A stretch of 12,584 nucleotides of DNA from Saprospirales bacterium (GTDB lineage Bacteria; Bacteroidota; Bacteroidia; Chitinophagales; Saprospiraceae): NCBI GenBank assembly GCA_003448025.1, contig DLXL01000457.1, positions 1,899 through 14,482 of the forward strand, given 5' to 3'. This document shows, piece after piece, positions 1-12,584 of this stretch; positions within the stretch are counted from its first letter, which is position 1, and every line of letters starts with the position of its first letter. Under the pieces are notes generated by a model. It ran no database searches. It was not told where the DNA came from and was given only the letters and a program-made list of their open reading frames with translations. The translations under genes and the position numbers were made by a program.

Positions 1-1
1 A

Positions 2-36
2 CCGTAGGCCGTCTACCGTCTACCGTAGTCCGTTTA
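2..36. repeat. Heptamer tandem array (CCGTNNN, 5 units), window start
   Basis: Five perfectly phased 7-base units run without interruption: CCGTAGG, CCGTCTA, CCGTCTA, CCGTAGT, CCGTTTA. The first four bases are invariant and the last three vary. Read in the sense of the adjacent minus-strand LOG-family gene, the array is ACGGNNN and begins immediately after its TAA stop (34-36), which itself lies inside the last unit. The array is cut by the window edge, so its real length is unknown. The same family recurs at 1157-1219, 1269-1316 and 12562-12584. Confidence 0.93.
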
Positions 37-762
37 CAACTCAAAATTCGGCTCCAGCAGACTGGCATCTTCCGCGTAGAATTTATTGATGTATTGAACA
101 GCCTCTTCCACATCGTCGGTAACGAGGAACAGATCCAGATCTTCGGTGTGGATGTTGTGATGACGTTTAAGCATGATCTCCACGATCCAGTTTTTCAATC
201 CTTCCCAGAATTCAACGCCCATGAGTACGATGGGCATGCGCGAAATTTTATTGGTTTGAACGAGGGTTAACACCTCAAACAGTTCATCCAACGTACCAAA
301 GCCGCCGGGCATTACTACGAATGCCTGGGCGTATTTTACAAACATTACTTTCCGCACAAAGAAATAGCGGTATTTCAGGTTGTGATCCGGTGCAATGAAC
401 GGATTGTGGTGCTGCTCAAACGGCAGGTTGATATTGAGACCAATAGACGTGCCGCCTTTCATCCAGGCTCCTTTGTTGCCCGCCTCCATGATGCCCGGAC
501 CACCGCCGGTAATCACACCATAGCCTTCTTCTACCAATCTCGAAGCTGTTTTTACTGCCAGTTCGTAATATACAGTGCCCGGTTTGGTTCGGGCCGATCC
601 GAAAATGGACACGCAGGGGCCCACTTCATTCAGCACCTCGAATCCATCCACAAATTCGGCCATCACTTTAAACATGGTCCAGGCATTCTCGCCGCGTTTT
701 TTACTCCATTGTTTTTGTTTTCTCGTTGAGCCGTTTTTGGGCTCCAGATTTTCTTTTTCCAT
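34..762 (-). CDS. LOG-family / TIGR00730 Rossmann-fold nucleotide phosphoribohydrolase
   Basis: A 242-residue protein of the LOG family, often mislabelled lysine decarboxylase. Characterised members release the free base from a nucleoside 5'-monophosphate (cytokinin riboside monophosphate or AMP-type substrates). The family signatures are visible: the nucleotide-binding GGGPGIMEA at residues 86-94, the RK pair at 137-138 and PGGFGTLDE at 152-160, which carries the catalytic region PGGxGTxxE. The N-terminal ~25 residues are lysine-rich and probably a flexible extension. No signal peptide is seen, so it should be cytosolic. The ATG at 762 is the only good start. It follows the monooxygenase-like gene on the same strand, separated by a strong hairpin (788-852), so co-transcription is uncertain. 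The stop codon is embedded in a heptamer array. The family is certain; the substrate in this organism is not known. Confidence 0.92.
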   Translation of the reverse strand: MEKENLEPKNGSTRKQKQWSKKRGENAWTMFKVMAEFVDGFEVLNEVGPCVSIFGSARTKPGTVYYELAVKTASRLVEEGYGVITGGGPGIMEAGNKGAWMKGGTSIGLNINLPFEQHHNPFIAPDHNLKYRYFFVRKVMFVKYAQAFVVMPGGFGTLDELFEVLTLVQTNKISRMPIVLMGVEFWEGLKNWIVEIMLKRHHNIHTEDLDLFLVTDDVEEAVQYINKFYAEDASLLEPNFEL

Positions 763-787
763 ATTCGATATTGATTATGATGACTAT

Positions 788-852
788 TCACCGCGAAGAA
801 CGCTAAGTACGCAAAGTTTTGATTTTTGCGTACTTAGCGTTCTTCGCGGTGA
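788..852. repeat. Perfect 28-bp inverted repeat with 9-nt loop
   Basis: Arms at 788-815 and 825-852 are exact reverse complements over 28 bases; the left arm begins TCACCGCGAAGAACGCTAAG. The loop is 816-824 (GTTTTGATT). In the minus-strand transcript it forms a very stable hairpin between the monooxygenase-like gene and the LOG gene. There is no U-tract after either arm, so it is not a classic intrinsic terminator, though it may still affect termination or mRNA decay. The right arm encodes the last five residues and the stop codon of the upstream gene. It resembles dispersed intergenic palindromes (REP or small MITE-like); whether other copies exist cannot be seen here. Confidence 0.93.
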
Positions 853-1148
853 TCTGGTTCGTCAATGACCTCGGTTGTCCAGGCTTCAGCCCTGGCAGCA
901 AACAATGCCTTGGTTTTAACCCAGGTGTCGGCAAACAGCTCCGAAGCGCGGTATGCATTCAGCGCCTCTTCGTTATCCCAGATACTTAGGGTGAACATTA
1001 CGTTGGGATTGTTTTTCTGCCGCAACAATTCCATATGGCGGCAGCCGTCAAAAGCGCGGATCTTTTCCTTGCTCTGCTCAAAAACTTTCGATACAAAAGT
1101 GTCTGCCGCGTCTTCGCGGAAGGTCATTTTTACAATTCGCTTGATCAT
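834..1148 (-). CDS. Antibiotic biosynthesis monooxygenase (ABM)-like small protein
   Basis: A 104-residue protein resembling the ABM dimeric alpha/beta-barrel family (YgiN-like quinol monooxygenases, heme-degrading relatives). The N-terminus is a beta strand (MIKRIVKMTF). It is followed by a helix, then a strand containing the FTLSIWDNEEALNAYRAS segment (about 52-69) and a final helix with F72, W76 and F83, which is the usual family pattern. The start is set at ATG 1148. The frame stays open further upstream to 1304, but that part is only translated heptamer repeat and low-complexity sequence. Residues 100-104 and the TAA stop come from the 28-bp inverted repeat, so the original C-terminus has probably been replaced. 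No Shine-Dalgarno is evident, and a heptamer array starts 9 bases upstream of the ATG. The family call is moderately firm; the substrate is unknown. Confidence 0.75.
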   Translation of the reverse strand: MIKRIVKMTFREDAADTFVSKVFEQSKEKIRAFDGCRHMELLRQKNNPNVMFTLSIWDNEEALNAYRASELFADTWVKTKALFAARAEAWTTEVIDEPDHREER

Positions 1149-1156
1149 TTTTTTAT

Positions 1157-1219
1157 ACGGTGGACGGCTTACGGTGGACGGTTTACGGCTTACGGTGGAC
1201 GGTTTACGGTAGACGGTCG
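1157..1219. repeat. Heptamer tandem array (ACGGNNN, 9 units)
   Basis: Nine contiguous 7-base units: ACGGTGG, ACGGCTT, ACGGTGG, ACGGTTT, ACGGCTT, ACGGTGG, ACGGTTT, ACGGTAG, ACGGTCG. ACGG is invariant and the trailing triplet is drawn from a small set. Bases 1157-1181 are an exact 25-base inverted match to 1276-1300 in the facing array. It lies just upstream of the monooxygenase-like gene, in its presumed leader. Confidence 0.95.
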
Positions 1220-1268
1220 CGTTGCGCTTAGCATTTGACTTAGAACGAATCCCAAGATCAACGCCAAA

Positions 1269-1316
1269 CCGTCCACCGTCCACCGTAAGCCGTCCACCGT
1301 CCACCGTCCACCGTTA
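1269..1316. repeat. Heptamer tandem array (CCGTNNN, 6 units plus partial) abutting rlmN stop
   Basis: The units are CCGTCCA, CCGTCCA, CCGTAAG, CCGTCCA, CCGTCCA, CCGTCCA and then CCGTTA. Its last three bases (1314-1316) are the TAA stop of the minus-strand rlmN. In the rlmN sense direction the array reads ACGGNNN. It faces the array at 1157-1219 across a 49-base spacer (1220-1268) that shows no repeat or gene, so the pair can fold into a large stem of at least 25 exact pairs. Confidence 0.95.
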
Positions 1317-2363
1317 CTTGTTCGCTAATTGTCCGCATGCGGCATCAATATCCTTGCCCCGGCTGCGCCTAACGGTTACGGTTACGCCTTCTTTGGCCAG
1401 GAAAGCACCGAACTCATTCAGACGGTTCTCGTCAGATTTCTCGAAAGGTACCCCGCCAATAGGGTTGTATTCAATGATGTTGACCCTAACCGGGAACTGC
1501 TTTCGGCAGAGTTGCACCAACCGGCGGGCATCGTCCAAAGAGTCGTTAAATTGCTGAAAGGCAATATATTCGTAAGAAATCCGCCCCTTGGTTTTCCGGT
1601 AAAAATACTCCAGGCTATCCATCAATACCTCGAGGTTGTTGGTCTCGTTGATGGGCATGATCTCATTACGTTTGGTATCGTCAGCGGCATGTAAACTGAG
1701 GGCCAGATTGGAACGGAACCCGTCGTCGGCCAGCTTGCGAATCATTTTGGCAATACCTGCTGTACTTACCGTGATCCGCCGGGCGCCCAGTCCAAGGCCT
1801 CCGTCTTCCGGAGGCGCAGTGAGGCGGGCAATACTGGCCATGGTATTGGGATAAGTGAGAAGCGGCTCGCCCATACCCATATATACCACATTCGTGATGG
1901 GTTTGCCGAAGTATTCCATGCTTTGGCGGTTAACACCTACCACCTGATCAAAAATTTCTGCGGCATCCAGATTCCTGCGCCTGCCCATTCGCCCGGTGGC
2001 GCAAAAGGCGCAGGTGAGGCTACAGCCTACCTGGGTACTTACACACACCGTATAGCGATCATCATCCGTTACCGGGATTAGTACACTTTCAATACGGTGT
2101 CCGTCGTAAGTCAGCCAACGCGTTTTCAAGGTTCCATCCAGGCTATGTTGCGTTTTTTCCTCCGTAAGGGAATTAAGTGCATAGGTCTCGGCCAGGCGCG
2201 CGCGCAAGGCTTTCGACAGGTTGGTCATGGCATTAAAATCCGGCGCGCCCTTGCTCCAAAGCCAGTCCCACACCTGGCCGGCGCGGAAACGTGGCTCCCC
2301 CCATGCGGCAAACGCCACTTCAAGGTCGGGGAGAGAGAGGGTGCGGATGTCAGGTCGTTCCAT
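1314..2363 (-). CDS. rlmN: 23S rRNA (adenine-2503-C2)-methyltransferase RlmN (dual-specificity, also tRNA A37)
   Basis: A 349-residue radical-SAM enzyme that methylates C2 of A2503 in 23S rRNA, and of A37 in some tRNAs in characterised homologues. The 4Fe-4S motif CxxxCxxC is at C114, C118 and C121 (GCSLTCAFC). The two cysteines of the methyl-transfer mechanism correspond to C107 (VCVSTQVGC) and C343 (DAACGQL) near the C-terminus. MGMGEPLL at 162-169 and YNPIGG at 299-304 are further family signatures. The length is normal for the family. The ATG at 2363 lies 4 bases after the stop of the HNH gene, so the two are probably translated from one message, although an internal promoter is possible. 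The TAA stop is shared with a heptamer array. All catalytic residues are present and the gene appears intact. Confidence 0.97.
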   Translation of the reverse strand: MERPDIRTLSLPDLEVAFAAWGEPRFRAGQVWDWLWSKGAPDFNAMTNLSKALRARLAETYALNSLTEEKTQHSLDGTLKTRWLTYDGHRIESVLIPVTDDDRYTVCVSTQVGCSLTCAFCATGRMGRRRNLDAAEIFDQVVGVNRQSMEYFGKPITNVVYMGMGEPLLTYPNTMASIARLTAPPEDGGLGLGARRITVSTAGIAKMIRKLADDGFRSNLALSLHAADDTKRNEIMPINETNNLEVLMDSLEYFYRKTKGRISYEYIAFQQFNDSLDDARRLVQLCRKQFPVRVNIIEYNPIGGVPFEKSDENRLNEFGAFLAKEGVTVTVRRSRGKDIDAACGQLANK

Positions 2364-2367
2364 TTGG

Positions 2368-3081
2368 TTAAGCGTAATTGTTTAAAACTGAAATAATTGC
2401 GGTGCAAAAGGGGGAATACCGATTGTCCACTCTTTGCATTAGTTGATTAATGGCTGCTTCTGTTTCAAGTTCCGGCCATACCTCTTTAATGAAAGTATCT
2501 ATAGCAGCTTTCCTCAACAGAGTCAGCGCTTTTGAATTTAACCCATAAAAATGAATGGTTTTTTCTGCCATTGATCCCTCTTGGGCCGGTTTTATAATGC
2601 CGAATTCATCGTATGAAAAATGATCGGCACAATCTTTATCCAAAGGCGAAACCAACCTGTCAGGCTGCGTAGGGTCCTTGGATTTTTTTGTAGTGTCGCA
2701 ATATAATTCTCTGGGCCTAGCCTTGTCCCTTTCGCCCCCATCGCAACAGGCTAACAAGTTCGAGTATTCAAAAACAAGGTGAGGATATTGCTGGTTTTCT
2801 TTAGGCTGAAAATGATCAATTTTAGTCCTGTGATTATTTTCAATCCGTTGTGTGCAATATGCACATAAAAACCCCTGATCATGCAGCAAATCTTCTCTCA
2901 ATTGCGTTTTGGTATATGGATCAAGTTCAGCTACTCCGGTTTCCTGTCTTGGTTGATTTTGCAGCAACCCGAATATATTATCCATATTTCCCGCTCTGGA
3001 AAGCCGGGTAATATCTGCTGATTTTACGCGTTTCCATTCGGTAAAGTTTTCAGGTTCTTTGCTTTTTTGAATATATTTCAT
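2368..3081 (-). CDS. HNH endonuclease, PtuB-like (TIGR02646-type), of a Septu-like pair
   Basis: A 237-residue protein with an HNH core in the middle. C73 and C76 (FLCAYC) form the first zinc knuckle, followed by IDHFQPK at 88-94 (the metal-binding H90 in the family's EH/DHxxPK position). Then comes the NLLACCDGG segment with N108 and C112/C113, and C128 in YCDTTKK likely completes the zinc site. This layout matches HNH proteins found next to AAA ATPases in Septu systems (PtuB) and in some retrons. In characterised systems the nuclease cuts nucleic acid, reported as DNA or tRNA, once its ATPase partner senses infection. The start ATG overlaps the ATPase stop by 4 bases (ATGA), indicating translational coupling. 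Its base composition is AT-richer than the flanking conserved genes. Substrate and activity here are inferred. Confidence 0.85.
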   Translation of the reverse strand: MKYIQKSKEPENFTEWKRVKSADITRLSRAGNMDNIFGLLQNQPRQETGVAELDPYTKTQLREDLLHDQGFLCAYCTQRIENNHRTKIDHFQPKENQQYPHLVFEYSNLLACCDGGERDKARPRELYCDTTKKSKDPTQPDRLVSPLDKDCADHFSYDEFGIIKPAQEGSMAEKTIHFYGLNSKALTLLRKAAIDTFIKEVWPELETEAAINQLMQRVDNRYSPFCTAIISVLNNYA

Positions 3082-4343
3082 CTGGTTTTCGCCGATTTTT
3101 TCTGAATCAAAATATCTGCCTTTACCAATTCCGGATCATCCGAACCAATCATTTCTACCAGTGCCTCTCTTAAGGTATCAGCCTTATCAAGGTCGCCCTG
3201 TCTAATGAATTCAATATATCGGGCGAGGTCTTTTTGAACCTTTTTATCCCGAATCTCATCATCCATTATCACATGTAACAACCAGTTATTGTCCTTTCCG
3301 AAGGTATTTCTTACCCGTATCTGAAAATCTTCAATTTCAAATACATTTCCATTTTCCACACCGCCAAGTACCTGTGGCGAATGGGTCGCCACAATAAATT
3401 GAATATTAGGAAATGTATTCCGGAGCGCGCCAATCACTGCTCTTTGCCATTTAGGGTGCAGATGAAGTTCAATTTCATCAATCAGAACAATACCTGAGCT
3501 TTCAAGTGGATTGATGAACTCTGTATTGAGTATGGCTGCTCTTCTGGCAATGTCTGCCACTAATAAAAGGATGGAACGTTCTCCGGCAGACAACTGTGAT
3601 AGCTTAAGCTCGGTATCTCCCTTTAGGATGTGGAGTTCCGCCTTTACGGAAGGTTTAGCAAAGTCAATTTCCGAAGTGCTTTGTCGCTTAATCCGCAATT
3701 CGGAAAAGTCCAGACCCATCTGAGTCAGAAACGTAGTAATGCCCTGACGAATGGTATATAGGGTAGGACTCTCCCAGTTGAAATCCTTTTTGTCTATTTT
3801 TTGCTGATTTTCAATATCTTCCTCGTATCGCCACCATTCGGTAAAATCAAAAAACGTTCCCGCTTTGGCGTTTACTGAAGTCGCATAAGCATATGTGCGT
3901 GAATCGAACAATGGTCTAAGGCTATTCGTATACTCAGTCTTTCTATCTATTGGAATCTCCCTGTTTGTACGGTAATAGGCTATAACTGGTAGAACATCTG
4001 TCAATACAACAAACGGAATTTTAACTGAAGTTGAAAAGTTTGAATCTTTACCTAAAGTCTTAGATTCTGAAATAAAAATATCTTTTCCTAAACGTTCCAC
4101 ATGGGCATGTATAGTAGCTTCATTTTGTCCCGCACTTATATCCTCATCCTCCAGCCAAATGTTGTGTGATTTGTTCTTTTTAGGAAAAGGAATACCGCTT
4201 ATCAAAGTAGCAATGGCATCTAAAACAGAGGTTTTGCCTGATCCATTCCAACCGAACAGAACAGCTATATTATCTTCGGAAAATGCAACTGAAGCATCTT
4301 TGAATCCTCGATAATTTTGAAGCTCTAATTTTTTAATCCTCAT
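3078..4343 (-). CDS. ABC/AAA-type ATPase, PtuA-like, of a Septu-like pair
   Basis: A 421-residue RecF/SMC-like ATPase without a coiled-coil insertion of SMC length. The N-terminus MRIKKLELQNYRGF is typical of the class. Walker A is GWNGSGKT (31-38), the ABC signature LSAGE is at 251-255, Walker B is GIVLIDE (284-290) with E290 as the catalytic acid, and the switch histidine is H321 in ATHSPQ. The C-terminal ~65 residues form a charged helical tail ending in a GSDDPELVKAD segment, which resembles tails of ATPases paired with HNH proteins. I chose the ATG at 4343. An in-frame TTG at 4361 would add six residues, but the protein then begins before the conserved MRIKKL start. It lies 24 bases downstream of the VWA gene and overlaps the HNH gene by 4 bases. 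The row at 4021 has only about 23% G+C by hand count, against about 65% at 8761, which suggests transfer. A role as a phage sensor/regulator of the nuclease is inferred from known Septu systems. Confidence 0.87.
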   Translation of the reverse strand: MRIKKLELQNYRGFKDASVAFSEDNIAVLFGWNGSGKTSVLDAIATLISGIPFPKKNKSHNIWLEDEDISAGQNEATIHAHVERLGKDIFISESKTLGKDSNFSTSVKIPFVVLTDVLPVIAYYRTNREIPIDRKTEYTNSLRPLFDSRTYAYATSVNAKAGTFFDFTEWWRYEEDIENQQKIDKKDFNWESPTLYTIRQGITTFLTQMGLDFSELRIKRQSTSEIDFAKPSVKAELHILKGDTELKLSQLSAGERSILLLVADIARRAAILNTEFINPLESSGIVLIDEIELHLHPKWQRAVIGALRNTFPNIQFIVATHSPQVLGGVENGNVFEIEDFQIRVRNTFGKDNNWLLHVIMDDEIRDKKVQKDLARYIEFIRQGDLDKADTLREALVEMIGSDDPELVKADILIQKKSAKTR

Positions 4344-4367
4344 AAAGCACTTTTCAAGCAAAGATAA

Positions 4368-6467
4368 TCAATACGCTCCGAAATACCTTCTCAGGAACCA
4401 TTCGCCAGCCAGCAGCAAAGCCAGCAGGGCAAAAATCCATTTCAGGTTGATGAGCGGGTTGGTTTGTGTGGTTTGGTAAATAACAGGCTTCACGGTTTCG
4501 TTGGCCTTGATTTTGTCGGCAATGCTGTTGAGTTGGGTGGAAAACACCGTTTCTCCGCCAAATTTGGCGCTCAGTTGCCGCAGTACGGCATGATTGGCCG
4601 TGGTTTCGAACAATTCTAACTCGATGGGTTGCACGCTAAATTTGCCCTCATACGCTAATGGCTGGCCATTAAAATTGGTGGTGGCCTTAAAGGTATACGG
4701 ACCAACCGGCAATATGCCGGCATTGAGGGTGTATGCTTTACCCAGCTTATTAAAAGTATAGGTGAACTCTTTCCCGTCGCGGTTGCGAATGCTCATGGCC
4801 ACATCGGGGTCGTTGGTGAGTTCGTAGTTGTCGTTATACAATTCCGCCCCAAAAGTGACGGCTTCATTTTCGTTGAATATATTCTTGTCCAGAGTTATCC
4901 GAAACTTGCGCTTATCTTCTTTCAGCGACAGGTATTGTACGGTTTTACCCACCAATTCATCAAAGATTTCGTGATTTTGGTGCTGCAAAAAGTCGAACAA
5001 ACGCCAGCGCCAGAGGCCTTCTCCAAGCAGAATGCCGGTTTTAATGCCGTTGGTTTCGCCCAGTGCCAGCATTGGCTGTTCTGTATCCACTTTGCCGATG
5101 CGTTTGTACAACAACACTTGAGCCTGTGGCGTTGCGCCGAAATTTCCGAACGCAGCGGTCATGGGGTTGAAACGGGGCAACTCTTCCTTCACTTTCGGAC
5201 TTAGCGAAAATGCGGCGAAGGATGGGGAAACACGCCCCTGTACTTCATCGCTCTGTGCGGCGTTGCTTTGCATACTCACCAGCCCTTGTGCCTTGCCCAA
5301 AGCCGTGTAACTGGTTTGCATTCCAGCTATGAACAGTCGCGGAATGCGCTTATCGTTCATAGTATTCAGCAAACCTGAAAGGTCGTTGGTGGTTGAGGGT
5401 AAATTATGCAGCACCACAAAATCATATTTGCCCACATCTACACCGGCATCGCCAATGTATTGGATGAATAGCTGGTAATTTTTATTGCCTTCCAGGGAGG
5501 TTTTCAGGGCAGACAGATCCGGGTGCGGACTATTGGCTAGGAGCAGGATTTTTTGACGTGCATCCAGAACGTCGATAAAAATCTCGCGGCGGTTGTTGGA
5601 GGTTACGGCTTCGCCGGGAAGCGCAGCAGCACTGATCACGTAAGAAACCACACCTGCCTGGTCAGCATCAAGTATTACTTCTTTGGTGATGAAAAAGTCA
5701 TTGCCGGATACTGATACCGGGATGCTTTGTAATTGTTTGAGTCCGTTATCCGTAGATTTAGATACGGTGACTACGGTTTGCTGGCCGGCCAGATTGGTTG
5801 CGGTCAGGTCAATTTGTAAGGTGAACTTATCGCCCAGGTAGGCAATTTTGTTGTGGAACACCCGCTTAAGCAGCAAATCTTTTTTGGGAGTAGTATCGCC
5901 CAAGGCTACTGTATACACCGGCGCCGACAGCGGTGCATCGGAATAAGCAGGGTTACTGCCCTCATTGTAATTGCCATCAGAAGCAAGCACCAGTGCGCCG
6001 AAGTTTTGACCACCAAACAGGTCATATACTCCGCGGATGAGTTCCGAAAAATTAGAAACCTTATCCGTGAAACTAAAATCTACGCCTTCCCGCACCTGAT
6101 CACCAAAAGCAATTTCATGTACTTCGTAGGATTCCGCCAGGGCCTCTTTCAATCCTGCCCAATCCTGCTTATACTTTTCAAGCGCCTCTCCTTTTAAATC
6201 CGAGGCCATACTTTCTGATTGGTCCTGTGCCAGTACAACAATGGGCTTTTTAGTTTCGGTGAAATAGCTTTTCAGGAGTGGTGATAACAACAAGGCACTC
6301 AAAATCGTAACCGCCAAAAAACGCAATATACCTAACCAAAGGTTCAGCCTCGGCGCCTGCTCCTTGAACGTAGTATCCCGGTAATACAGCAACATTGCGT
6401 ACCCAAGCCCCAGCAACACGCATAAAATCAAAAACCAGGCAGGGTATTGAAAAGACAAGTCAAGCAT
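4368..6467 (-). CDS. VWA-domain membrane protein with large ectodomain
   Basis: A 699-residue inner-membrane protein. Hydrophobic segments at about 10-28 and 43-63 form an N-terminal hairpin, and a third at about 674-691 lies just before the C-terminus (WIFALLALLLAGEWF). Directly after the second segment is a von Willebrand A-like fold with a MIDAS motif D82-Q-S84-E-S86 and a later metal-site aspartate D164 (ASDGN). It ends in the usual VYTVALG strand (184-190). The region ~195-660 looks like beta-rich, Ig-like domains with a Rossmann-like GATase-type middle (ILLLANSPHPDLSALK). This architecture is common as an uncharacterised conserved protein in Bacteroidota and resembles BatA/BatB-type proteins in domain content only. 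The ATG at 6467 is the only fitting start. Function unknown; a cell-envelope scaffold or sensor is a guess. Confidence 0.8.
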   Translation of the reverse strand: MLDLSFQYPAWFLILCVLLGLGYAMLLYYRDTTFKEQAPRLNLWLGILRFLAVTILSALLLSPLLKSYFTETKKPIVVLAQDQSESMASDLKGEALEKYKQDWAGLKEALAESYEVHEIAFGDQVREGVDFSFTDKVSNFSELIRGVYDLFGGQNFGALVLASDGNYNEGSNPAYSDAPLSAPVYTVALGDTTPKKDLLLKRVFHNKIAYLGDKFTLQIDLTATNLAGQQTVVTVSKSTDNGLKQLQSIPVSVSGNDFFITKEVILDADQAGVVSYVISAAALPGEAVTSNNRREIFIDVLDARQKILLLANSPHPDLSALKTSLEGNKNYQLFIQYIGDAGVDVGKYDFVVLHNLPSTTNDLSGLLNTMNDKRIPRLFIAGMQTSYTALGKAQGLVSMQSNAAQSDEVQGRVSPSFAAFSLSPKVKEELPRFNPMTAAFGNFGATPQAQVLLYKRIGKVDTEQPMLALGETNGIKTGILLGEGLWRWRLFDFLQHQNHEIFDELVGKTVQYLSLKEDKRKFRITLDKNIFNENEAVTFGAELYNDNYELTNDPDVAMSIRNRDGKEFTYTFNKLGKAYTLNAGILPVGPYTFKATTNFNGQPLAYEGKFSVQPIELELFETTANHAVLRQLSAKFGGETVFSTQLNSIADKIKANETVKPVIYQTTQTNPLINLKWIFALLALLLAGEWFLRRYFGAY

Positions 6468-6484
6468 TAAAATAGTTATTTATT

Positions 6485-6731
6485 GGTCATTAAGGGTCAT
6501 TTGGGGGTCATTTGGGTTATTTATTGGTCATTTAGGGGTCATTTAGGGGTCATTTGCCCAACTTGAGTTGTTATCCAGAGCGCAGCGAAGGACCTACACA
6601 AGCCAGGTTCTCGAAATGCTTTGGCCTAACGCAACCGAATAGCCGGGCTTGTGTAGGTTCCGAGTACTCGGAATGACAACTCAGGTTGGGTAAATGACCC
6701 CATAAATGACTCAAATGACCCCCAAATAACC
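6485..6731. repeat. Composite nested palindrome: GGTCATTT tandem arrays flanking an inner hairpin element
   Basis: This fills the only gap over 300 bases (6468-6782). On the left, seven GGTCATTT-type units start at 6485, 6495, 6506, 6515 (variant GGTTATTT), 6526, 6537 and 6548, giving a period of about 11 bases. On the right, four reverse-complement units (AAATGACC type) lie at 6692, 6704, 6713 and 6724. Inside is a second inverted repeat: 6557-6571 pairs with 6676-6690 (14 of 15), and 6592-6604 pairs exactly with 6646-6658 around a 41-base loop. The intervening parts of the arms differ: the left carries a CCAGAGCGCAGCGAAGGA segment and the right a perfect 16-base palindrome at 6658-6673. The inner part resembles widespread GTCATCCTGAGCGCAGCGAAGGA-type intergenic repeats. 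I see no convincing gene in it; a short open frame here is only translated repeat. Confidence 0.9.
6658..6673. repeat. Perfect 16-bp palindrome
   Basis: TTCCGAGTACTCGGAA is fully self-complementary. It lies in the right arm of the composite element at 6485-6731, at the position where the left arm has an unrelated imperfect hairpin (CCAGAGCGCAGCGAAGG). It can form a lateral hairpin, giving the whole element a cloverleaf or cruciform shape. Confidence 0.9.
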
Positions 6732-6782
6732 TCGAATCCTTCCTCCCAAGACGCAAAATTGCGGAAAAAGTTGCTGCCGTTT

Positions 6783-9700
6783 TCAATTTCTCATATCAAA
6801 GCGCACCCAATCCACCGCAATAACCGGTTTTGAAGGGTTTTTTTCGTTTTTTAACACAAAATACAAGTCATGGAATGAGCCATCAGCAACAGTTTCCAGG
6901 GGAATATTGACTTCCGCGAAGGTCATTCGGGGTGCTTGTTCAGGCACGGGTAGTACTACCTGTCCTAAAAGCTTGCCTTTGGCAGAGCCGAGGCGGGCTT
7001 CAATCCTGCCTCCACCATACTGATAACGCCCGTCGCTCATCCCTATGCCCACTGCTACACCGTGTATCCCAGTTAGATCCACATGTTTAAACATGAAAAA
7101 ACTGTTGGGCTTGATTTCATTCAACACCACGGTATCCCCATTAAACGGCCGATACGTCCGAATGTTTTTCGACATGCTGTCTGCTTGTTCGGCCTGCTGA
7201 AACGCCGGACGCATGGCTATGGTTTCGCCGTGTTCCAGCGGCCCCTGATTGGCGCTGCCTCTGTCGCGATAGCTGGCTTTGAAGATAAAAGTGCCCTGCT
7301 TCGGCTTGGCATTTTTGTCGGCCGGCGGAGGCGGGGTTAAGGCGTAATCTCCTGCCAGCGGGAAAGATTGTTGCGGTTTGGGCGGACTGCCAAGCGATAA
7401 TATCCAGCGTACCATTTCGCCCGCGTCTTCTTCTGATACTTGCGGGTGAGCGCTCATTACGGTTTCGCCCCAATTTCCGGCGCCACCCTTGATCACTTTC
7501 TTGGATAAGTTGCGTACAGCAAAATCGTCTTTCCGGTAGCGTTCGGCGATGGCCGTGTAGGAAGGGCCGTTCACCAGTCGTTCTTCAGCATGACAGGTGC
7601 CACAATCCGAGCGACTGATAAGCAGTTTGCCGCGAGCATATTCTACTGCCTGTTTGGCGGCCTGGTGCCCCTGGGCAATGCTGGTGATATCAAAGCCCGT
7701 TTCCAGATAATCTACCGTAGTTGCCACCGCAGTAGCCGAAATATTGCCTTTGGTCAGCGACCCATCTTCTGCATCCGTTACTTCCAGTTGGTAGTGCAGC
7801 ACATCGCCGGGTTGATAAAAGCTCCGGTTTTTGCCGTTGAAATTCCAGTACACCAGCGGAGGCTCGTTGCCTACCTGTATTTTAACCTTGGCGGTGCGTA
7901 CGGCTGCTGCTGCATCTTTCACTTTCAGGGTAATTTCATAGTTGCCCGGTTTTTGATACAGGTGCACAATACTGTCCAGCTCCGAATGCTTGTGCAGCAT
8001 GTTTTTGGGCTCCACTGAAGCCAGTCCGCCCCGTGCTGTGGGCTTTTTGGGGTGAATGTCCAGCACTGGCGTACCATCGCCAAAATCAAGGGAATATTCC
8101 AGGTATTCGCCATCGTAATCCTGGGTTTTGGAGATGTCTGCACAGACTGTGAACGGCGCCGCGCCGGCGGTTTTTTTAATCTGGAGCGAAGGTATGGGCG
8201 GACGGTTTCCGCGCACATAATCAATCCGCGAGAGACGGGCATCCGGGTTGGTGGCAAACCATTGCGTGCCGTATTCCAGAACCCAGATGGAGCCGTTTTT
8301 ATCCACCACCATATCCATGGGGCGGGAGAATTTAAGCTGCTCCGCAAAAGGCTCCATTTTACTGAAATTACCCATTGAGTCTACCGTAACAGCCATCATC
8401 CAGCCGCGCATCCATTCATAAATGATGAGTTTGCCGTTGTAATAATCCGGCATTCTTGTTTCTGCCGGATATTTATCGCAGTAATATACCGGGCCGGCCA
8501 TGGCATTGCGGCCACCGGTGCCAACCAGTGGGAATTCCGGGGAATTTCCATAGGGGTACCAGATGAAGGCAGATTGAGCCGGTGGTAATTCCCGCAAGCC
8601 GGTATTATTGGGCGATTCGTTGATAGGGCGCTCCGGATTGTGCAGCGGGCCATTTTTCCCGCTCGCAAAATCGTGATCACGATACGGTTTGTTATTCCCC
8701 ACAAAATAAGGCCAGCCAAAAAATCCGGCAGCGCGGGCCCGGTTTACCTCGTCGTGCCCTTGCGGACCACGGGCAGTATCCGGCTCCCCGGCATCCGGAC
8801 CAACTTCGCCCCAAAACAGCAGCTTGCGGCGTTCGTCAATGGAAATCCGGAATGGGTTTCGGCAACCCATTACGTAAATTTCCGGCCGTCCTTTTTGCAA
8901 CTCCGGCAATTTTTTGTGATCCGGCCAGCGCATATTCATTTCTTTGGCGCCGTTAAATAAGTTACCAGCCGGGCATATGTAACTGCCGTCAGGCAAAGGC
9001 TTGATGCGCAGGATTTTGCCACGTAAATCATTGGTGTTGGCAGAAGACCCTTGTGCATCCCAGGGACTGCGGCCGGGGCGCTCGTCGGAGGGAGAATACC
9101 CTTCTGACGCAAAAGGATTGGTGTTGTCGCCCGTACTCAGGAAAAGGTTCCCTTCAGGGTCAAACTCCAGGCATCCACCGGCATGGCAACATTCTTCGCG
9201 TTGTACGGCCACCTGCAGAATCACTTTTTCGGAAGAACGATCTAAGGAATCACCTTGAAAAACAAAGCGGGAAAGGTTGTTTACGGCTTCGTTGCCCACC
9301 GGCGAATAGTACAGGTATATCCAGTGGTTTTTTTCATAGCTGGGATCCAATGCAAGGCCCATCAGGCCATCTTCCTGTTCCGAATAAACGGGCAGTTTAC
9401 AGGCTATATTGGTTAGCCCTGTGGCGGGATCGTACAATTTTATGTTGCCCCGGCGCTCAATAAACATCACTTTGCCGTCGGGGAGAAGCTCCAGTTCCAT
9501 AGGCTCGGTGAGTTCTGATGCGAGTACCGTTTTTTGAAAACGAGTAGGATCCGGGATTTCCGGCGTTCGGCAGGCGGTATAATCCAGGCGTTTCCGTTTG
9601 CCAATGGCATAGCGGATTCCACCCAGGATGTGTTTCAGAAAATCAGGCTCGGCGTAACTTTCTTTAGTATGACCTCCGGCAGTATAAAATGCACGGCCTC

Positions 9701-10346
9701 CGTCGTACTCGTGGTACCAAGCGGCAGGGTGGCATGATCGATTGCCAGAAACCCCGTCTTTGCAATTGGTTCCTCCTTCGTAGGTAGACTCATCGAGGCT
9801 CAGCAGCACCGTTACGTTGGGGTTGAGGTTTTTGAAATTATACCACTCATCTTTACGTTGCCAGGTGTCGCCTTTGAGGTGGCGGGTAGCGGCGTGTTCG
9901 TGGTTTTCAATGTTCAGGCTGGCGTCCTGAATGGCCGGGTGACCATTGAAATAGCCGCCAGCCAGGCCACCATACCAGGTCCAGCCGTATTCGGTATCCG
10001 TGGAAGAGTGGATGCCCACGTAGCCGCCTCCCGCCTGGATGTAACGTTCAAAATCTGTTTCCTGCGCCGGGTTGAGTACATCGCCGGTGGTGCATAGGAA
10101 TATGACGGCGTTGTAGCGGCGCAGATTTTTGGCGTTGAAATCTTCGGCATCCTCGGTGGTATCCACAGCAATGCCGTTTTCCAGACATAGTTTGCGCAAA
10201 GCAGCAGTAGCTACCGGGATACATTCATGCCGATAACCCTCCGTTTTGGAGAAAATGAGTATGCGTGGCGGGATGTGATCGGAGCAATTTGGCAGAAAAA
10301 TGGAAAGGGCAAGAAAGACGAAAAACGGGCGAACCAATTGCTGCAT
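6783..10346 (-). CDS. Mosaic lipoprotein: ThuA - GSDH beta-propeller - PKD - cytochrome c - CBM6-like
   Basis: An 1187-residue exported lipoprotein. A hydrophobic signal ends in LPNC with lipidated C21. Residues ~28-248 are a ThuA (trehalose-utilisation, GATase-like) domain, with GHPAIQD and DEWYNF typical segments. Residues ~265-710 are a glucose/sorbosone dehydrogenase-like beta-propeller (DGLMGLALDP, GGCLEFDPEGNLFLSTGDNT, LRGKILRI). Residues ~715-825 are a PKD-type domain (YSLDFGDG, GNYEITLKVKD). Residues ~895-985 are a class I cytochrome c with the heme motif C915-G-T-C918-H919 and probable axial M964. Residues ~1013-1187 resemble a family-6 carbohydrate-binding module (GGGRIEARL, VDWVRFD). 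This order recurs in Bacteroidota. The likely role is oxidation of a sugar or glycan at the envelope, with electrons passed to the fused heme; substrate and quinone cofactor are not shown by sequence. It is divergent from the haloperoxidase-like gene, with 179 bases between starts. Confidence 0.92.
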   Translation of the reverse strand: MQQLVRPFFVFLALSIFLPNCSDHIPPRILIFSKTEGYRHECIPVATAALRKLCLENGIAVDTTEDAEDFNAKNLRRYNAVIFLCTTGDVLNPAQETDFERYIQAGGGYVGIHSSTDTEYGWTWYGGLAGGYFNGHPAIQDASLNIENHEHAATRHLKGDTWQRKDEWYNFKNLNPNVTVLLSLDESTYEGGTNCKDGVSGNRSCHPAAWYHEYDGGRAFYTAGGHTKESYAEPDFLKHILGGIRYAIGKRKRLDYTACRTPEIPDPTRFQKTVLASELTEPMELELLPDGKVMFIERRGNIKLYDPATGLTNIACKLPVYSEQEDGLMGLALDPSYEKNHWIYLYYSPVGNEAVNNLSRFVFQGDSLDRSSEKVILQVAVQREECCHAGGCLEFDPEGNLFLSTGDNTNPFASEGYSPSDERPGRSPWDAQGSSANTNDLRGKILRIKPLPDGSYICPAGNLFNGAKEMNMRWPDHKKLPELQKGRPEIYVMGCRNPFRISIDERRKLLFWGEVGPDAGEPDTARGPQGHDEVNRARAAGFFGWPYFVGNNKPYRDHDFASGKNGPLHNPERPINESPNNTGLRELPPAQSAFIWYPYGNSPEFPLVGTGGRNAMAGPVYYCDKYPAETRMPDYYNGKLIIYEWMRGWMMAVTVDSMGNFSKMEPFAEQLKFSRPMDMVVDKNGSIWVLEYGTQWFATNPDARLSRIDYVRGNRPPIPSLQIKKTAGAAPFTVCADISKTQDYDGEYLEYSLDFGDGTPVLDIHPKKPTARGGLASVEPKNMLHKHSELDSIVHLYQKPGNYEITLKVKDAAAAVRTAKVKIQVGNEPPLVYWNFNGKNRSFYQPGDVLHYQLEVTDAEDGSLTKGNISATAVATTVDYLETGFDITSIAQGHQAAKQAVEYARGKLLISRSDCGTCHAEERLVNGPSYTAIAERYRKDDFAVRNLSKKVIKGGAGNWGETVMSAHPQVSEEDAGEMVRWILSLGSPPKPQQSFPLAGDYALTPPPPADKNAKPKQGTFIFKASYRDRGSANQGPLEHGETIAMRPAFQQAEQADSMSKNIRTYRPFNGDTVVLNEIKPNSFFMFKHVDLTGIHGVAVGIGMSDGRYQYGGGRIEARLGSAKGKLLGQVVLPVPEQAPRMTFAEVNIPLETVADGSFHDLYFVLKNEKNPSKPVIAVDWVRFDMRN

Positions 10347-10381
10347 ATAATGACATAAATTTTGAGGCTGAAAAGTAGCAG

Positions 10382-10411
10382 TTGTTTTTCCTTTTTCGTG
10401 CTTTATTTTTG
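10382..10411 (+). promoter_or_regulatory. Candidate Bacteroidota promoter for the haloperoxidase-rsmE transcript
   Basis: A TTG at 10382-10384 is followed 19 bases later by TATTTTTG (10404-10411), which fits the Bacteroidota -33/-7 consensus (TTTG, N19-20, TAnnTTTG). Transcription would begin near 10418, leaving a leader of about 110 bases before the ATG at 10526. The motif is short and the region is AT-rich, so chance cannot be excluded. I found no equally good element for the divergent minus-strand gene; TACTTTTC near 10370-10378 on that strand is a weak candidate. Confidence 0.45.
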
Positions 10412-10525
10412 CCGAAGTCAGCCATTAGAATAGTATTAAAAAGCCCAAAACCTTATTGTTCACGTGTTATTACCCGGATTTTTGCATTAGAAAATGGCTT
10501 TTGCATTTTCCATAAAACGTTTATC

Positions 10526-11860
10526 ATGAATTTAAAATCATTCTTGTTTGCCGCATTTGCTTTGCTGATGTGGCTCCCCGCTTGCCAAACCGGCAGTAAC
10601 GAATACCAACAAAAAGCGAACAATGCCGAGTTTATTCACGCAGGCGTTCGCCGTATTACCGACATTATTCGCCACGACATTTTTGCGCCGCCCATTTCTT
10701 CCAGAATCTATGCTTACGGCGCAGTTGCCGCCTATGAAGCGCTGGTACCGGGTTTCCCGAATTACCAAAGCCTCGCCGGCCAGCTCAATGGGCTTACGCC
10801 TGTGCCACAGCCGGATGCCGGCAAGGATTATTGTTTCCCTCTGGCCAGTGTGAATGCTCAGTTGATTGTGGGCAAGGCACTGGTTTTTTCAGAAGGCGAT
10901 GTGGAAGACCTCAAGGAGCAAATCTTCGAAGACTTCCAGAAAATGGGTATCCCGAAGGATGTTTATGATCGCTCCATGGCTTATGGCGAGGCGGTGGCCA
11001 AGCACATCATTGCATGGTCAAAAACCGACAACTACGCGCAAACACGCAGCGCAGCCAAGTTAACCATTGATGTAGAAAATCCTTCCCGCTGGCGCCCAAC
11101 CCCGCCTGCTTATGGCGATGCCCTGGAGCCACACTGGCCCAAGATTCGGCCATGGGTCATGGACTCTGCAGCGCAATTCCCTGCTGATGCTCCGGTTCCA
11201 TTCAGCAAGGAAAAAAACAGCGAATTCTACAAGCAGGCGCTGGAGGTTCGTGACATCGTGAATGAGAAAAACCCGGAAAAAGAAGCCATCGCCTGGTACT
11301 GGGACGATAACCCGTTTGCCATGGAGGTGAGCGGCCACGTAGCGTTTGCCAAAAAGAAAATCAGCCCGGGTGGCCACTGGATGAACATCGTAGGTCATGC
11401 CTGCCGCAAAGCCAATGCCGATGCCATGGTGTCTGCCGAAGCTTATGTGAAAGTAGCCTGCGCCCTGGCCGATGCTTTTATTTCCAGCTGGGATACCAAG
11501 TACAAAACCAACCTGATTCGTCCGGAATCTTATATTAACCAATACATTGACCAAAGCTGGCAGCCACTGATCCAAACGCCTCCGTTCCCGGAACATACCA
11601 GCGGTCACAGTACCATTTCTATGGCCTCTGCGGCGGTATTGACCGGCATTTTTGGTGAAAACTTTGCGTTTACCGATAGCACTGAAGTAGAGTTTGGACT
11701 CCCTACCCGCTCTTTCAAATCATTCTATGAAGCTTCTGAAGAAGTAGGCGTCAGTCGTTTGTATGGTGGTATTCACTACCGCCGTGGCAACGAAGCGGGT
11801 TTGAAAGTTGGCAAGCAAATCGGCGAGTATGTAAACAAAGAACTGAAGACCCGCAAGTGA
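10526..11860 (+). CDS. Vanadium-dependent haloperoxidase-like / PAP2-superfamily lipoprotein
   Basis: A 444-residue lipoprotein. The signal peptide ends in LPAC with C20 as the lipidated residue, so I chose ATG 10526; the frame is open back to 10382, but that stretch would bury the signal peptide. The C-terminal part carries the three PAP2/vanadium-haloperoxidase motifs. K325-x6-R332-P333 is in KYKTNLIRP; motif 2 is S359-G-H361 in PEHTSGHS, with Thr where the classical motif has Pro; and S410-R411-x5-H417 is in SRLYGGIH. These residues bind phosphate or vanadate, and H361/H417 are the expected catalytic histidines. The N-terminal ~250 residues are helical and typical of bacterial VCPO-like proteins. 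It could act as a haloperoxidase or as an acid phosphatase; sequence alone does not decide. rsmE follows after 4 bases, so the two probably share a transcript. Confidence 0.88.
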   Translation: MNLKSFLFAAFALLMWLPACQTGSNEYQQKANNAEFIHAGVRRITDIIRHDIFAPPISSRIYAYGAVAAYEALVPGFPNYQSLAGQLNGLTPVPQPDAGKDYCFPLASVNAQLIVGKALVFSEGDVEDLKEQIFEDFQKMGIPKDVYDRSMAYGEAVAKHIIAWSKTDNYAQTRSAAKLTIDVENPSRWRPTPPAYGDALEPHWPKIRPWVMDSAAQFPADAPVPFSKEKNSEFYKQALEVRDIVNEKNPEKEAIAWYWDDNPFAMEVSGHVAFAKKKISPGGHWMNIVGHACRKANADAMVSAEAYVKVACALADAFISSWDTKYKTNLIRPESYINQYIDQSWQPLIQTPPFPEHTSGHSTISMASAAVLTGIFGENFAFTDSTEVEFGLPTRSFKSFYEASEEVGVSRLYGGIHYRRGNEAGLKVGKQIGEYVNKELKTRK

Positions 11861-11864
11861 CCCT

Positions 11865-12575
11865 ATGAGTCAGTTGTTCTTCACGCCGAAGATTGAAAAC
11901 GGTTTCGCTATTTTTGAAGAAGAGGAGGGCCGGCACCTGAGCACGGTTTTGCGCAAAAAACCGGGCGACAGGCTCCGCCTCACCGATGGAAAAGGTCATT
12001 TTTACGAAGCCGAACTGGCTGATGCGGGCAAGCGACAGGTGCTTGCCCGCATCATTTCCAGTGAAAGTGTACCGCGGCCGGATCGCGGACGCCTTCACAT
12101 GGCCATTGCGCCAACCAAAAACATGGATCGCCTGGAGTGGTTTCTGGAAAAAGCCACAGAAATAGGCGTGGATGAAATCACGCCCATCCTGTGCAAACAT
12201 TCAGAACGGGAAACACTGCGCCTGGACCGTCTGGAGAAAATCCTGGTTTCGGCCATGAAACAGAGCCTGCGCGCCTGGCTGCCGCAACTCAACCCGCTCA
12301 CGAAGTTTACAGATTTTGTCAAAAAAACAGGCGAGACGCAAAAGCGCCTCGCCTGGTGTGGGGACGAACCTATGCCGCATCTGAAAAACACCCTTCAACC
12401 GGATCAAAACACCGTGGTAGCCATCGGCCCGGAAGGCGATTTTAGTCCGGAAGAAGTAACCCTCGCGCTTTCCAGCGGCTTTCAGGCCGTCAGCCTCGGC
12501 GAAGCCCGCCTGCGCACGGAGACGGCTGGTTTATATGCGGTGACGGTTTTTGCGACGATTGACGGTGGACGGTAG
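11865..12575 (+). CDS. rsmE: 16S rRNA (uracil-1498-N3)-methyltransferase RsmE
   Basis: A 236-residue SPOUT-class methyltransferase that methylates N3 of U1498 in 16S rRNA using S-adenosylmethionine. An N-terminal PUA-like region (~1-70, with RHLSTVLRKKPGD) precedes the SPOUT domain. Family motifs are KATEIGVDEITPI (96-108), AMKQSLR (130-136), IGPEGDFSPEE (187-197) and LGEARLRTETA (211-221), where the deep trefoil knot binds SAM. The ATG is 4 bases after the stop of the haloperoxidase-like gene, so it is probably translated from the same message. The last four residues (DGGR) and the TAG stop are read from a heptamer array, so the native C-terminal codons appear to have been overwritten or extended. 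All core motifs are intact and function should be retained. Confidence 0.96.
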   Translation: MSQLFFTPKIENGFAIFEEEEGRHLSTVLRKKPGDRLRLTDGKGHFYEAELADAGKRQVLARIISSESVPRPDRGRLHMAIAPTKNMDRLEWFLEKATEIGVDEITPILCKHSERETLRLDRLEKILVSAMKQSLRAWLPQLNPLTKFTDFVKKTGETQKRLAWCGDEPMPHLKNTLQPDQNTVVAIGPEGDFSPEEVTLALSSGFQAVSLGEARLRTETAGLYAVTVFATIDGGR

Positions 12576-12584
12576 ACGGCCTAC
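12562..12584. repeat. Heptamer tandem array (ACGGNNN, 3 units then cut), window end
   Basis: The units are ACGGTGG, ACGGTAG, ACGGCCT and then AC at the window edge. It overlaps the 3' end of rsmE and contains its TAG stop (12573-12575). In the gene's sense direction it reads ACGGNNN, the same orientation as beside the LOG gene and rlmN. Its reverse complement shares GTAGGCCGTCTACCGTC with positions 5-20 region of the window start. Confidence 0.92.

Follow-up and report, generated by a model that had tools for sequence, protein, structure and literature searches.

Many intergenic gaps in the genome of a Saprospirales bacterium are filled by large elements that are predicted to form hairpins and whose arms consist of runs of the heptamer ACGGNNN. 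These elements were analyzed starting from a stretch of 12,584 nt (the window; G000:C400:1899-14482) of a draft genome of 5.32 Mb in 648 contigs (G000, hereafter the own genome). We interpret the heptamer arrays as the arms of palindromic intergenic elements that may play a hairpin role at transcript 3' ends, like that of repetitive extragenic palindromic (REP) elements, a reading that we consider to have an even chance of being right.

A first-pass annotation of the window had reported three ACGGNNN arrays, at the stop codons of the LOG gene, rlmN and rsmE. All three were present (2-33, 1269-1314 and 12562-12579), and a fourth array had been overlooked, so that the inverted pairing went unseen: the arrays at 1157-1216 (+) and 1269-1314 (-) are inverted relative to each other and enclose a core of 52 nt, and these two arms occupy most of the spacer between rlmN and the ABM-domain gene. 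The fold predicted for this spacer (1150-1316) had a minimum free energy of -105.1 kcal/mol (z = -12.55), and none of 200 shuffled sequences was equally stable. A search of the window with ACGGNNNACGGNNNACGG yielded 16 matches, versus none in 200 dinucleotide shuffles. The annotation had further placed each stop inside or flush with the first unit, which was correct for the LOG gene (flush) and for rlmN, where the last A of the stop TAA (1314-1316) is the first letter of the first ACGG. The rsmE stop TAG (12573-12575) lies inside the second unit, and the array codes for nearly all of the final residues DGGR. On the left, the window starts beside a stretch of N; on the right, it stops where the contig stops, which puts a possible partner of the rsmE array out of sight.

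The comparison covered 603 kb of the own genome in 60 stretches (48 bearing arrays or lying on contigs that do, and 12 not), 58 stretches of the relative G020 (1.14 Mb; the first 18 partly picked for arrays, two for rlmN and the rest not) and 35 loci of the relative G043. By RlmN, the nearest named relative of the host is the Chitinophagales metagenome-assembled genome (MAG) UWPOB_CHIT8 (96% identity), the same hit as for G020, followed by the Saprospiraceae MAG SJ858 (93% identity), the same hit as for G043. Unlabeled paired figures below refer to the own genome and then to G020. Gene calls came from a home-made hexamer caller, and gene starts may therefore be off.

Three-unit ACGGNNN runs matched the whole own genome 183 times forward and 185 times reverse, with 0 and 3 matches for the reversed pattern. 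Neighboring arms less than 500 bp apart were arranged as 28 +-, no -+, two ++ and seven -- pairs in the own genome and as 15 +-, no -+, two ++ and no -- pairs in G020, so that 56 of the 92 arms and 30 of the 41 arms belonged to convergent (+-) pairs. An element consists of (ACGGNNN)n, a core that is often itself a palindrome, and an inverted array; in N-free cases, the core measured 4-175 nt and the whole element 49-362 nt. Long cores of the own genome often consist of N; the N-free elements (16 and 15) were therefore used to describe cores and folding, and their median folding z-scores were -7.9 and -13.5.

Each unit joins the fixed ACGG to one of a restricted set of triplets, and C-type triplets rarely follow one another (8 and 4 cases). 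Simple heptanucleotide slippage repeats, like the short tandemly repeated repetitive (STRR) sequences or long simple sequence repeats, would account for the 7-nt period and for the number of units, which differs between orthologous arms, but the fixed ACGG, the triplet restrictions and the head-to-head arms speak against plain slippage, which the first-pass annotation had entertained, and make it highly improbable. Cyanobacterial STRR sequences are direct repeats of tandem seven-nucleotide units; the ACGG arms share the 7-nt tandem unit with them but are inverted and stop-anchored. The host is not a cyanobacterium; its nearest named relatives are Chitinophagales and Saprospiraceae MAGs.

The arms are concentrated at stop codons. 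In the own genome, 55 of the 92 arms face a stop, 29 face a start and 8 have no gene on that side. Forty-two of the 55 stop-facing arms lie at -56 to +6 nt and 26 at -1, 0 or +1 (a negative arm-to-stop distance means that the stop codon is located inside the array), and 13 of the 29 start-facing arms lie at most 21 nt from the start. Among the 41 arms of G020, 26 face a stop, 14 face a start (1-214 nt off) and one lies inside a called gene; the stop-facing arms fall at -21 to +6 nt in 25 of 26 cases and at -1, 0 or +1 in 14. Over both genomes, 81 arms face stops and 43 face starts (p = 8e-4). When each block was slid at random inside its own spacer, 6.4 of the 25 blocks in tandem spacers of the own genome and 3.0 of the 12 in G020 were expected at most 6 nt from the stop, versus 16 and 10 observed (0/20000 simulations for each genome). 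In 20/25 and 11/12 tandem spacers, the distance from the element to the stop was shorter than that to the start, and at least one stop was within 6 nt in 10/11 (6.6 expected) and 9/9 (6.2 expected) convergent spacers. Divergent spacers held only 3/39 and 2/23 elements. The enrichment at stops suspected from three sites thereby held in the stretches fetched from the own genome and two relatives. The orientation rule proposed with it, by which ACGG points away from the gene, applied to 43 of 47 arm-stop pairs and to 25 of 26 in G020, and equally beside starts (13/13 and 8/8). Since the arms are inverted pairs, this orientation, alike at stops and starts, belongs to the element and not to the stop.

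The arrays also affect the gene ends themselves. Anchored genes ended in TAG in 21/42 cases versus 96/428 overall in the own genome (p = 4e-5) and in 13/25 versus 154/843 in G020 (p = 1e-4), and the stop codon is often supplied by the array (ACGGTAG). Self-capping as a full explanation was rejected: three-frame entry into arrays of at least five units met no stop in 88/174 and 57/102 frames. RsmE ends in ATIDGGR in the own genome, in ATVEG in G020 and in GLLDVGLLDDGQ in G043, where a G043 array codes for it. The ABM gene ends in EVIDEPF in G043, whereas in the other two genomes its last residues (DHREER or DHREVR) and its stop TAA come from a stem-loop of another kind; supplying stops is therefore not confined to the ACGG family. 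This stem-loop belongs to a second family (CACCGCGAAGAACGCTAAGTACGC...), lies 3' of the ABM gene at window positions 782-850 and is missing from the site in G043.

We propose that an element behind a stop codon would be transcribed and fold into a long hairpin, which could affect the 3' end of the upstream mRNA by termination, by protection from 3' decay or through terminating ribosomes; between convergent genes, one hairpin might serve both 3' ends. The earlier suggestion of a 3' signal fits the predicted hairpins. A number of results weigh against this proposal. Many arms have no partner, either ending at contig ends or N runs or facing no three-unit array. Unit identity between the two arms of an element was 14/82 (random 0.165) and 16/85 (0.22) from the outer end and 15/82 (0.18) and 25/85 (0.26) from the inner end, and native arm pairs were more stable than swapped arms in 17/31 cases (p = 0.49). 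Covariation between arms was thus not found; pairing would therefore rest on the common ACGG/CCGT register, and there is no sign of selection on it. Thirteen of the 55 stop-facing arms in the own genome were at least 26 nt off, with N in between in eight and none in five, and both stops were flush in 6/11 and 6/9 convergent spacers, the chance level (6.0 expected each). None of five terminator-like sites in window positions 1-1500 (loops of 3-8 only) was at an array, and Rfam gave no match in the window or in two G020 loci.

The absence of co-adaptation between arms would be expected if the elements were neutral or parasitic spacer DNA, resembling miniature inverted-repeat transposable elements (MITEs), that has no function, survives where harmless and overruns gene ends until coding constraint stops it. 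Stops would then be supplied by chance, ACGGTAG and TTGACGG containing them. We regard this main rival reading as a real possibility, though one we hold doubtfully. The C-termini that vary with the array, as in RsmE, the rare occupation of divergent spacers and the other repeat families of G020 spacers (see below) agree with it, but tolerance alone predicts elements in mid-spacer, which are few. It is also at odds with the occupation of shared sites: 13 of 70 flanks of own-genome arrays (8 sites) had a match in the fetched part of G020, and all 13 were occupied by an array there, although some G020 stretches had been picked for arrays or rlmN.

At these shared sites, the array edge either coincided or was displaced, by anything from a few nucleotides to two degenerate units. 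In the reverse direction, 17 of 43 G020 flanks matched own-genome stretches, of which 12 were occupied, two were duplicates of these, one was degenerate and two were uninformative repeat matches, a comparison biased because the own-genome stretches were picked for arrays. At the rlmN site, the G020 core is a palindrome unrelated to the own core (1217-1268). Counted from the outer edge, units of 12 orthologous arms agreed in 6/12, 5/12, 4/12, 3/9, 2/7, 0/3 and 0/1 cases (random ~0.19); this small sample is suggestive of exchange from the inside of the arms. Under our proposal, the repetitive arms would let copies swap inner parts by recombination while position is kept.

G043 carries a second heptamer family, in GTTGGAC/AATGGAC arrays. 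A 17-mer of this family had 29 matches in G043 and none in the 30 other genus genomes searched, and the family is perhaps derived, since TGGAC is common to it and to the commonest own unit. Its loci contained 45 arms, 29 of them stop-facing, with 28 at -41 to +13 nt and 24 at -41 to +4 nt; the motif used also accepts TAGAC units, and two or more of the 29 are in fact ACGG arrays. Arm pairs were +- in 19 cases, -+ in one and ++ in one. TAA was the stop in 1/24 anchored genes versus 21/49 other genes in these loci (p = 8e-4). From 54 flanks, with 16 and 18 hits, the orthologous place in the own genome or G020 was readable for nine sites of this family, and six of these carried an ACGG array (one degenerate in the own genome), one a GGAC array and two neither. 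Five of the six ACGG cases lie on the window's own contig, which makes the evidence for family switching local.

One of the two sites with neither family (L349 versus L294) has different repeats in G020. The other (L327) reads, in G043, TAA, then the element, then ~24 nt to the next ATG, and the orthologous place is empty in both relatives: TAA, 25 nt and ATG in the own genome (L063), and TAA, 28 nt and ATG in G020. In searches in both directions, the upstream gene had a single strong match in each genome, and G020 gave one additional weak match; this supports orthology and speaks against a paralogue. If both empty relatives represent the older state, the element was gained directly behind the TAA and the old spacer retained. 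The comparison of empty sites called for earlier thus gave this one case. When spacers of the own genome were compared with G020, both flanks were adjacent in 43 of 392; nine differed by at least 40 nt, with no readable clean ACGG empty site. By sequence comparison, then, related species keep the sites but differ in units, cores and even the repeat family. It seems unlikely that the elements enter directly behind or into stops by a mechanism that recognizes gene ends (for example, on transcripts or terminating ribosomes), with 7-nt families replacing each other at sites in sister species.

The four-unit ACGG pattern was found in 11 of 40 genomes (25 of the genus including the own genome, and 15 of the order); all 11 are in the genus, and six had more than 200 matches. 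In a family sample, 28 of 150 genomes matched, the own genome included. Among the matches listed for named genomes, those to the five-unit pattern were spread over many phyla and were often plain repeats. G020 spacers also contained 28 other period-7 and 50 other period-8 arrays, versus 27 arrays overlapping ACGG arms. A stop rule for all 7- to 8-nt families was rejected, as the other families were nearer the stop in just 9/15 and 18/36 tandem spacers, in a test with a looser detector and with families pooled. Among the first 40 arrays in G020 (L211-L228, L265-L304), GAGTGAGT, GAGTGTTT, CGCAGAGG and TTGGATA arrays lie in spacers, some as facing pairs. In G014, the reversed control of GGCANNN units had 256 and 226 matches, and another heptamer family seems abundant there.

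A transposase link, raised by the first-pass annotation, was absent at the four Y1 loci inspected, a single one in each of G000, G020, G043 and G010; none was directly flanked by ACGG arms. These loci carry other palindromes, with no adjoining three-unit arm; at the G020 locus, a large ACGG element lies ~1.2 kb off and is separated from the Y1 gene by another gene, and the G043 locus has a two-unit remnant close by. Several Y1-bearing genomes also lack arrays. We therefore find it very unlikely that these are REP elements mobilized by a Y1 (REP-associated tyrosine, RAYT) transposase, even though Y1_Tnp occurs in 26 of 31 genus genomes, the five without it also lack a four-unit ACGG match, and REPs occupy the same positions (PMC3733652). 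In L080 (6700-8300), repeated palindromes GGACCTCGCAAGAGGTCC lie on both sides of a Y1 transposase gene with GTAG close by; together they may be a separate RAYT-REP set.

The features of the window are collected in Table 1. Pfam matches were PF03641 (LOG), PF03992 (ABM-domain gene), PF21016 and PF04055 (rlmN), and PF04452 and PF20260 (rsmE). An inverted element with 11-nt arms (GGTCATTTAGG) lies at 6475-6790, upstream of a gene start, and that spacer has other palindromes in G020 and G043.

Table 1. Heptamer arms and associated features of the window
Feature	Position	Strand	Remark
Arm, LOG gene 3' end	1-36 (array 2-33)	-	outer edge directly after stop TAA 34-36
Arm facing LOG arm	contig 1569-1586, outside window		past run of N
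Arm, 9 units	1157-1216	+	start side of ABM-domain gene; start codon complement 1146-1148, 8 nt off
Core between arms, 52 nt	1217-1268
Arm, rlmN 3' end, 7 units	1269-1316 (array 1269-1314)	-	stop TAA 1314-1316
rlmN-ABM spacer	1150-1316	-	predicted single long hairpin
Arm, rsmE 3' end	12562-12584 (array 12562-12579)	+	cut off by contig end

Should our reading hold, the 3' ends of many genes of this lineage would bear fast-changing palindromes that rewrite stops and C-termini while positions are kept, offering a natural test of 3'-end hairpin roles and of genome-wide concerted turnover of short repeats. Such spacers assemble badly, several arrays being at contig ends or beside N runs.

Among known systems, MITEs share the terminal inverted repeats; the L327 empty site is too diverged for a target-site duplication to be read, and a parent transposon was sought only as Y1_Tnp. 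The TAACTGA direct repeats of Beggiatoaceae, cyanobacteria and five Bacteroidetes (PMC4679880) resemble the present arrays in being heptamer arrays in spacers, patchy among species and sometimes overlapping stops, but those of the main genome described there lie mostly just upstream of starts and have an invariant unit and one inverted case. The 28 and 15 inverted pairs and the excess of stop-facing arms speak against a direct repeat of this type. A literature search, conducted mostly at listing level and with subscription journals largely outside it, returned no account of inverted ACGG heptamer elements.

REP sequences, as described in PMC3733652, are palindromes tagged with GTAG or CGTC and occur mainly in tandem and convergent spacers; most copies between convergent genes have each 3' end under 20 bp away (two species), tandem-gene copies lie near the upstream 3' end, and their ends often supply a TAG stop. 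A REP located less than 16 nt away from a stop can reduce translation (PMC12306157, citing Liang 2015). The heptamer elements are likewise many-copy, intergenic and palindromic, lie beside 3' ends and have the stop supplied by the repeat. As for the tags, G preceded the array-abutting TAG in 3/9 and 3/5 cases (6/14 together), and CGTC is present inside many heptamer units. A REP unit is a short palindrome of 20-40 bp, whereas the heptamer elements are larger and built of array arms, and another repeat family occupies the same sites in G043. The heptamer arms and the different repeat at the same spot in relatives look new compared with known hairpin repeats, and REP elements are, judged from sequence, the closest known kind.

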